Shown here: positions 35,243 through 40,339 of the stretch, piece by piece
How the letters are laid out: every line of letters starts with the position of its first letter
How positions within the stretch are numbered: position 1 is the stretch's first letter
DNA from: Megasphaera sp. MJR8396C
GTDB taxonomy: Bacteria > Bacillota > Negativicutes > Veillonellales > Megasphaeraceae
Direction: 5' to 3'
DNA: 64,000 bases
NCBI RefSeq assembly: GCF_001546855.1
Contig: NZ_KQ958176.1
Location: 1-64,000, forward strand
Position numbers and translations under genes: made by a program
The notes under the pieces: model-generated
The model's database searches: none
Told to the model about the DNA's origin: nothing
What the model saw: the letters and a program-made list of their open reading frames with translations, nothing else

Positions 35243-35277
35243 AATAAGAAAGTACATAATGAGTAGGAGCGATGCTG

Positions 35278-36138
35278 ATGGAAGAAAAGATCCAGCAAAT
35301 TCCCGTCCTGCGCAGCGTATACGGCGGTCTGACGAAGTCAGAGCGCCGTATTGCCGATTATATCGCCAATCACATCGGCGTCGTCATGGAACAGACCGTC
35401 GCCGACTTGGCGGCGCAGACCGAGAGTTCGGAAATCACGATTTCCCGATTTTGTAAGAAATTAGGCTGCAGCGGTCTGAAAGAGTTAAAATTGATGCTGG
35501 CCGCAGGGATGTCGGCAGCGCCGCCCAAAGCTTTTCACGATATCGATGCCGGTGACGGCGGCCGTGACGTCGCCTCTAAGGTCTTTGCCAATATTTCCGA
35601 AGGGCTGCAGGATACGCTGAGCCTCCTCGATTACGAGGCCCTCGATGCGGCGGCAGCCATGATTTTAGCGGCCAAAAGAGTCTATGTCTTTGGCTTTGGC
35701 AACTCGGCCACGGTCTGTACCGATATGGAGACCCTTTTTTTGCGCCTGGGTCTGGCCATCCGAGCCGATGCCGATTCCCATATGCAGGCTACCGAAGCGG
35801 CCCTAGTGACGCCTGATGACGTCGTCATTGCCGTCTCCCACAGCGGGGCGACGAAAGAGCTGTTACAGTCCGTTCAGACGGCGAAAGCAGCCGGTGCCGG
35901 TATCATCGTCATTACCAGTCACGGTCAGTCCTTATTGGCCAAATTAGCCGATATCTGCCTCTGCGGCATGGGCCGCGAAGTCCAGTACATGTCGGAAGCC
36001 GGTGCCTCGCGGTTGATTCACATGGCCATTGGCGATGTCCTTTATACGCGCATTGCCATGAAAGAAAAAGGGTTTTTCCAGGACAATATCAAAAAGATGC
36101 GTAAGGAAATCAGCAAAAGACGAAAGTATCGATTTTAA
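35278..36138 (+). CDS. RpiR-family transcriptional regulator
   Basis: A 286-residue regulator with an N-terminal HTH_6 domain (residues about 1-77; SERRIADYIANH, TISRFCKKLGCSGLKELK) and a C-terminal SIS sugar-phosphate-binding domain (about 120-255; VYVFGFGNSATVCTDME, VIAVSHSGATKELL). It most likely senses a phosphorylated intermediate, perhaps 6-phosphogluconate, and controls the gluconate operon of which it is the last gene. The second of two close ATGs (35278) is chosen because AGGAG is only two bases from the first at 35272. Confidence 0.88.
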   Translation: MEEKIQQIPVLRSVYGGLTKSERRIADYIANHIGVVMEQTVADLAAQTESSEITISRFCKKLGCSGLKELKLMLAAGMSAAPPKAFHDIDAGDGGRDVASKVFANISEGLQDTLSLLDYEALDAAAAMILAAKRVYVFGFGNSATVCTDMETLFLRLGLAIRADADSHMQATEAALVTPDDVVIAVSHSGATKELLQSVQTAKAAGAGIIVITSHGQSLLAKLADICLCGMGREVQYMSEAGASRLIHMAIGDVLYTRIAMKEKGFFQDNIKKMRKEISKRRKYRF

Positions 36139-36157
36139 CACGCAAAAACAGGAAGCG

Positions 36158-36193
36158 CAGCCTGCTGTCCATCATCGGCAGCAGGCTGTTTTT
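36158..36193 (+). terminator. Terminator of the gluconate operon
   Basis: Ten-base stem CAGCCTGCTG/CAGCAGGCTG with an 11-base loop, followed by TTTTT. Confidence 0.88.
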
Positions 36194-36242: not shown

Positions 36243-36346
36243 AAAAAAGAAACCATGTCCACCAATACATCCTTACTGATGTACATCGAGTGGCAAACCG
36301 CAAGGGGCTGTCTGCCGTTAACAAACGACAGAACATGGTTATAGAT
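36243..36346 (-). ncRNA. Candidate small RNA, about 104 nucleotides
   Basis: On the minus strand an ideal promoter is followed by a compact foldable sequence and a terminator, with no reading frame that starts inside it. The closing stem AACCATGT/ACATGGTT ends in TCTTTTTT. Inside are a nine-base hairpin TCTGTCGTT-TGTT-AACGGCAGA and a third stem combining CCAC/GTGG with TACATC-AGTAAG-GATGTA, giving a three-way junction. It is not SRP RNA, tmRNA, RNase P RNA or a tRNA by motif. It is transcribed opposite to both flanking genes, so it is not a leader. Function unknown. Confidence 0.65.
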
Positions 36347-36352
36347 ACGTTA

Positions 36353-36381
36353 AGTATATCCGACTCGGTGCCTGGCGTCAA
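36353..36381 (-). promoter_or_regulatory. Promoter of the candidate small RNA
   Basis: Read on the minus strand: TTGACG (36381-36376) and TATACT (36358-36353) with a 17-base spacer. The start site should fall near 36346. Confidence 0.7.
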
Positions 36382-36475
36382 GGACCTGCGCCGTATCAGG
36401 GGGCTGCCAAAACCTTAGTGGTGCCGTAAACACTGAATGACTAAGTTCGCGGCAGGTCCTTTCTAAGCGAAAGGG
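36380..36475. other. Nested inverted repeat with alternative pairings
   Basis: AAGGACCTGC (36380-36389) pairs with GCAGGTCCTT (36452-36461), enclosing CTTAGT/ACTAAG (36415-36420/36440-36445). The right arm also overlaps a second hairpin CCTTTC-TAAGC-GAAAGG (36459-36475), and its GGCAG could instead pair with CTGCC inside the loop. The left arm overlaps the small-RNA -35 box. Whether it acts as RNA or as a DNA site is unknown. Confidence 0.4.
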
Positions 36476-36569: not shown

Positions 36570-37331
36570 GTGAAAAAATTTGTGGAAATGGCGACCATTG
36601 TCGAAAATACAGCCATCATTCCGGAAGTCTGGAAAATGGTCTTCCAAGCGCCGAAGACGGCGAGCGAAGCCAAGGCCGGTCAATTTGTCAACGTCCATCG
36701 CGATGGGGGACAGACCTTTTTGCGCCGTCCTTTCGGTATCGTCGATGCCGATGTGGAAGCCGGAACGGTGACCATTATTTACCGCCTGGTCGGTATCGGC
36801 ACGGAAGAAATGAAGGCCCTTCGTCCCGGCGACGTCCTGAACGTCGAAGGCCCCTTAGGCGACGGCATCTTTACGACGACGCCCGGCAAGGTACTCCTGG
36901 CTGGCGGCGGGGTGGGCCTGGCACCGCTCATCTTCTTGGCGAAACAGCTCGATCATCCCATCGTGCTCGTCGCCGGTAAGACGGCAGCCGAAACCTTTTG
37001 GACCGAGTTTTTTGAACCCTATGCCGAACAGATTTACGTCACGACCGATGACGGCTCGAAAGGCATCAAGGGCTTTGCCGTCGACGCCTTGCCGACGATC
37101 TTTTCCGAGCATCCCATCGACCGCGTGTCGGTCTGCGGTCCGACGATGATGATGAAAACCATTGCCGAAGGATCGGCCAAAGCCGGCATCGACTGCGAAG
37201 TTTCTATGGAAAAACGGATGGCCTGCGGCATCGGTGTCTGCCTGGGCTGTACCTTTGAAAGCAAACAGGACGGTAAGCGCTATAAAGTCTGTACCGACGG
37301 TCCTGTCTTTTCGGCAAAGGAGGTTTTCTGA
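36570..37331 (+). CDS. pyrK: Dihydroorotate dehydrogenase electron transfer subunit
   Basis: FAD and [2Fe-2S] subunit that lets the type 1B dihydroorotate dehydrogenase pass electrons to NAD+. The 253 residues have the flavin motif RRPFGIVD, the GPLGDGIF loop, the NAD-binding [19 protein letters not shown], and a C-terminal cysteine cluster ([15 protein letters not shown] then YKVCTDGP) for the iron-sulfur centre. The start is taken as GTG 36570; GTG 36582 or ATG 36588 are possible. Its stop overlaps the pyrD start by one base. Confidence 0.94.
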
Positions 37332-40227: not shown

Positions 40228-40241
40228 TCAATACGGTGTTA

Positions 40242-40339
40242 CTTCATCTGTCGGAATGTTCCGGTGGACTTGGCACCTTCCCGAATGGGGGTTGCCGCAG
40301 CGTCATCGGGCCATTCCCTCAGCTGCTCTGGATGAAAGA
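40242..40339 (-). promoter_or_regulatory. SAM-I (S-box) riboswitch upstream of metNI
   Basis: Read on the minus strand the leader shows the S-box core: closing stem CTTTCATC/GATGAAG, AGAGCAGCTGAGGGA, ATGGCCCGATGACGCTGCGG, CAACC, then GGTGCCAAGTCCACC. SAM binding is expected to favour the downstream terminator, so the methionine importer is made when SAM is low. Confidence 0.95.

Follow-up and report, generated by a model that had tools for sequence, protein, structure and literature searches.

A candidate small RNA gene with a conserved four-way-junction fold between rpiR and pyrK in three Megasphaera species

The window, a 64,000-nucleotide stretch of contig NZ_KQ958176.1 from Megasphaera sp. 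MJR8396C, contains a candidate small RNA (sRNA) gene on the minus strand at 36381-36243, between rpiR and pyrK. The rpiR product has HTH_6 and SIS domains and, because the gene follows a gnd and gntP pair, is read by context as a gluconate-type regulator. Both rpiR and pyrK/pyrD lie on the plus strand, and the sRNA gene therefore opposes both neighbours, in agreement with an earlier sequence-only reading of this DNA. The features of the locus are given below, where the relatives are M. massiliensis NP3 (G007) and Megasphaera sp. UBA1696 (G010).

35272-36138, plus strand: rpiR, HTH_6 and SIS domains
36157-36189, plus strand: terminator-like hairpin of rpiR itself
36243-36252, minus strand: U-rich tail TTTCTTTTTT immediately following P1, resembling an intrinsic terminator, with the U-run also present in both relatives
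36253-36258, minus strand: P1 3' strand ACATGG, consensus fold
36259-36293, minus strand: P4, long hairpin with internal loop, single-sequence and consensus folds
36294-36310, minus strand: P3 hairpin with C-rich loop (CAGCCCCTTGCGGTTTG), strong form in the relatives CAAGCCTTCGCGGYTTG
36311-36332, minus strand: P2 hairpin TCTGTCGT...ACGGCAGA, consensus fold
36333-36338, minus strand: P1 5' strand CCATGT, consensus fold
36243-36342, minus strand: candidate sRNA body of about 100 nt used for model R1, block conserved among the three species
36353-36358, minus strand: -10 hexamer TATACT after a 17-base spacer, same spacing in the relatives
36376-36381, minus strand: -35 hexamer TTGACG (extended TTGACGCC), kept in both relatives
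36570-37331, plus strand: pyrK, neighbour of the sRNA gene

A cis-regulatory leader or riboswitch was considered for this element and rejected, as both adjacent genes lie on the opposite strand; with no gene following on its own strand, the RNA cannot be a leader. Elsewhere in the window, an ordinary SAM riboswitch (RF00162, 85 bits) is found at 40241-40338 on the minus strand, upstream of an operon for a methionine-type ABC transporter.

The minus strand reads TTGACG-CCAGGCACCGAGTCGGA-TATACT-TAACGTATCTATAACCATG... and finishes ...ACATGGTTTCTTTTTT at 36243, so that about 100 nt follow the promoter and terminate in TCTTTTTT at that position. The TTGACG-N17-TATACT promoter, the structured stretch of about 100 nt and the TCTTTTTT end are thus all present as first described. 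The true 5' end of the RNA probably lies at about 36346-36340, within a few bases either way. The promoter agrees with the consensus at 10 of 12 positions. However, a region of this size contains one such match against 1.2 expected in shuffled sequence, and the promoter alone therefore proves nothing. The longer pattern TTGACGCC-N15-TATACT has only two mismatch-free occurrences in this genome, and the reversed-pattern control gave none. In the relatives, the -35 hexamer is TTGACT (M. massiliensis) or TTGACG (UBA1696), and the -10 hexamer TACACT or TATACT, respectively. Directly upstream of the promoter, a large imperfect hairpin (AAGGACCTGC...GCAGGTCCTT; 36378-36463) touches the -35 hexamer. 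This hairpin occurs once in the genome and is missing from the corresponding position in the relatives; its fold lies within the range given by shuffled sequences.

A DNA-level search covered 15 Megasphaera genomes, counting the present one. Two relatives, M. massiliensis NP3 and UBA1696, matched at 70-71% identity across the whole 139 bases, while the element was found in none of the 12 other genomes. In both relatives the element adjoins pyrK on the opposite strand, at the same locus and in the same orientation as here. pyrK itself is present in 15 of the 15 genomes, at 58-100% protein identity. rpiR also adjoins pyrK in two genomes (G002 and G006), where the gap is short and lacks the element. 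In G002, we also observed a tandem duplication of about 100 bases upstream of pyrK (L007:1268-1475), spanning the 3' end of rpiR and the pyrK promoter.

A covariance model, R1, was built from the sequences of the three species, which it scores at 92-114 bits. Run over 17 genomes of the family, 61 of the order and 350 of the class, R1 returned the three known copies and nothing else convincing, and with filters off it detected no diverged copy in any pyrK region of the genus. Weak matches of 17-21 bits (G001, G035, G054 and G102) were fragments with many broken pairs and were set aside as chance. A pattern scan of GTDB contigs matched only M. massiliensis NP3 and UBA1696, in a collection from which the window's own genome may be absent. 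Neither BLAST against phage and plasmid records nor the pattern, scanned over viral contigs, gave a match, and the element occurs once per genome. The conservation expected at the outset was found, in three Megasphaera species; the expectation that it would extend across the Veillonellaceae was too wide.

Pairwise identity of the RNA body among the three species is 76%, 71% and 94% over aligned bases. For M. massiliensis and UBA1696, identity reaches 94% in the body and 95% in the 106 bases that separate the promoter from pyrK, whereas the 39-base promoter block and the 100 bases downstream are each at 54%, near the 46-49% (sd 6-8) obtained when random sequences were passed through the same aligner. 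Inside this diverged promoter block, the hexamers and their 17-base spacing are kept, and the stems and the U-run are likewise kept in both relatives. Judged by these alignments, the conservation pattern is gene-like.

The predicted minimum free energy of 36352-36243 is -34.7 kcal/mol, where dinucleotide-shuffled sequences gave -23.6 +/- 3.2 (z -3.5, 0 of 200), and the single-sequence fold in this genome is only moderately unusual. Folded individually, the copies of the three species gave z values of -3.5, -5.1 and -5.6. Their consensus fold is a four-way junction, in which P1 (CCATGT/RCATGG) closes three hairpins, P2, P3 and P4. P1 is lengthened by an extra AA/TT in this genome, where the relatives have GG/CC. 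The closed multi-branch fold of the sequence-only reading was thus borne out, but its helix count of three was not. P3 is weakened in this genome by a C-U mismatch and is strong in the relatives, which may be why only three helices were seen. The nine-base hairpin noted in the same reading is real and corresponds to P2, and its TACATC-AGTAAG-GATGTA element forms the tip of P4. Most of the RNA is paired, the open parts being the three hairpin loops, the internal loop of P4 and the tail.

The three-sequence consensus folds at -39.8 kcal/mol, whereas alignments with shuffled columns give -15.5 +/- 2.9 (z -8.5, 0 of 500); the corresponding values of the structure conservation index (SCI) are 1.01 and 0.64. 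Pairing in register holds in 98% of cells, compared with 32-39% when partners are slid by 1-3 bases. Compensatory changes affect one pair in P2 (U-A/C-G) and one in P4 (G-C/A-U), and P2 also shows a single C-G/U-G change. The lower stem of P4 carries an indel that is taken up by a bulge, and the junction is kept through it. Two pairs are therefore changed on both sides, a number that 52 of 500 shuffles reach. The evidence for a conserved fold is strong from energy and register and weak from covariation in the strict sense; covariation is thin because there are only three sequences, two of them close. The proposal had been exposed to a comparison that could have returned neither conservation nor compensatory changes, and it withstood it, with covariation limited to these two pairs.

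The promoter searches also surfaced a second candidate small RNA family, consisting of a TTGACGCC-N15-TATACT promoter followed by a hairpin of about 60 nt (GACGTCCCC...GGGGACGTC) and a U-run. In M. massiliensis and UBA1696, the arrangement TTGACGCC-...-TATAC[T/G], then a hairpin of about 60 nt (AAAAGGACGTCCCCTCATTTTGCAT...GGCAGGGGACGTCTTTTTT), lies further downstream on the strand of the sRNA; in M. massiliensis this second RNA starts some 175 bases after the sRNA ends. The copies are as follows.

L006:2677-2790 (G007:C6:638073 onward): M. massiliensis
L005:2621-2735: second-family copy
L059 (G007:C6:496017-496115): M. massiliensis
L057 (G000:C52:4371-4268), minus strand: this genome, another contig

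M. massiliensis has two copies and this genome one, and several compensatory pairs are seen among the four. The copy in this genome lies between two PTS-like genes, opposite to them; judged by eye from their translations, these look like a BglG/LicR-like regulator and an EIIA-like protein. The family has no Rfam match, and its duplex energy with the sRNA is within that of shuffles.

The M. massiliensis sRNA promoter spacer differs from that of UBA1696 (L002:1501-1541 versus L003:1501-1541), with flanks 94-95% identical. As UBA1696 and this genome have the same spacer type (81% of aligned bases), the change is in the M. massiliensis promoter. Since the M. massiliensis sRNA promoter (AACGATTCTGCTACACTGATTGTAT) resembles the promoter of the second RNA (AACGATGCTGATATACTGATAATAT), it may have been exchanged by local recombination. 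The hits of the promoter search also included a third candidate, likewise conserved, in which TTGACGTC-N15-TATACT precedes AAAGAGGATTCATTTTTACTGGC...GATGAATCCTCTTTTTT; its hairpin (AAAGAGGATTCAT...ATGAATCCTCTTTTTT) is near-identical in the two species in which it is listed here.

L067 (G000:C45:28649-28621), minus strand: this genome
L066 (G007:C6:1137400-1137428): M. massiliensis

Neither the promoter nor the single fold is decisive for calling an sRNA gene; the relatives decide. A promoter, body and U-run conserved together at the same locus, with no coding capacity and no Rfam family, make a stand-alone sRNA gene, as originally proposed, the best reading. We consider it highly probable that this is a real sRNA gene, whose own promoter and terminator are, as sequence signals, conserved with the body. 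A short membrane-type peptide gene (ATG-TTC-TG... inside the element) would be consistent with a frame that runs for 54 codons in one species and 31 in another. However, in UBA1696 this frame closes after 4 codons, a one-base indel in P4 shifts it, there is no consistent ribosome-binding site, and conservation follows the stems. With no open reading frame conserved among the three species, we regard a peptide gene as very improbable. The element also falls in the size range of small SRP RNA, and could in principle represent 6S RNA, SRP RNA or a similar housekeeping RNA in diverged form. Against this, Rfam 15, searched at gathering and relaxed thresholds in this genome and both relatives, gave only chance matches, with none at the element beyond chance at E up to 10, and genuine 6S and small SRP RNAs lie elsewhere in all three genomes, above cut-offs. 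This leaves a housekeeping identity with a negligible probability, in line with the initial remark that the element lacks the motifs of the common housekeeping RNAs. Megasphaera goes unmentioned in the main text of two surveys of structured RNAs (PMC11109978 and PMC8632094), and of six papers naming both Megasphaera and sRNA, none is, by title and abstract, about Megasphaera sRNAs.

With respect to function, an independently transcribed trans-acting non-coding RNA of about 100 nt, specific to the M. massiliensis branch, has roughly even chances, and we would give the same balanced judgement to trans base pairing overall. The RNA would be transcribed from a sigma-A type promoter and would end at the intrinsic-terminator-like U-run. 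The C-rich loop of P3 is the most plausible seed, and any action through it is inferred. This loop (CCCCUUG here, CCUUCG in the relatives) is C-rich and open in all three species, with an unpaired probability of about 0.9. Gram-positive (Firmicutes) sRNAs with C-rich loops are known to act on ribosome-binding purine runs, and the P3 loop, being C-rich, could therefore pair with such runs. In this scheme it would pair with Shine-Dalgarno-like purine runs of unlinked mRNAs and repress their translation. With the starts of the linked pyrK and rpiR, the loop pairs no better than with random window segments. The difference in loop sequence between this genome and the relatives counts against a strict seed.

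Because the stems rather than the loops are conserved, the main rival to trans base pairing is a structured RNA that binds a protein or small molecule (a sponge, scaffold or orphan sensor), with the four-way junction as its working part. An almost wholly paired RNA whose junction survives the indel in P4 fits this possibility, which we hold to be appreciable if doubtful, given that no gene downstream on the same strand is available for control and no known protein-binding family matched in Rfam. Less probable again is a remnant, transcribed or untranscribed, in the form of a complex terminator or a small mobile-element hairpin without a function of its own. The narrow distribution, the fast-changing intergenic region and the further structured elements nearby in the relatives would suit a remnant, whereas its single copy per genome and the conservation of hexamers and body where the flanks are not conserved argue against it. 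Nor does the element end a neighbour's transcript, since no U-run comes after the fold on the plus strand and a separate terminator already serves rpiR. A comparably unlikely, broader view is that of a young protein- or metabolite-binding four-way-junction RNA family, located in a hotspot of the M. massiliensis lineage where promoter-plus-RNA cassettes (the sRNA and the second hairpin family) would be gained and lost and would exchange promoters.

A young, lineage-specific sRNA gene is thus our best reading. Sequence comparison shows that the element is built like a gene, that its fold is conserved, that it lacks coding capacity and that it is narrowly distributed, and as a gene this new, narrow Megasphaera candidate is well supported. 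Regulatory RNAs of Megasphaera are almost uncharted, and with its anatomy defined and a model that detects it, the sRNA is directly testable. Its presence in three sister species, with no copy found in the rest of the genus, illustrates how rapidly such genes arise.

In comparison with the second hairpin family, the sRNA has the same promoter type and stands in tandem with it, upstream, in two relatives. The second family differs in being a single long hairpin of about 60 nt, in having two copies in M. massiliensis, and in an RNA body without evident similarity to the sRNA. From known trans-acting intergenic sRNA genes, the Megasphaera sRNA is set apart by the lack of a sequence or model match to named families and by a compact four-way junction that leaves hardly any stretch single-stranded. 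It resembles them in its sigma-A type promoter, its length of about 100 nt, its intergenic position opposite to the neighbouring genes, its U-run end, its lineage-restricted distribution and its open C-rich loop.
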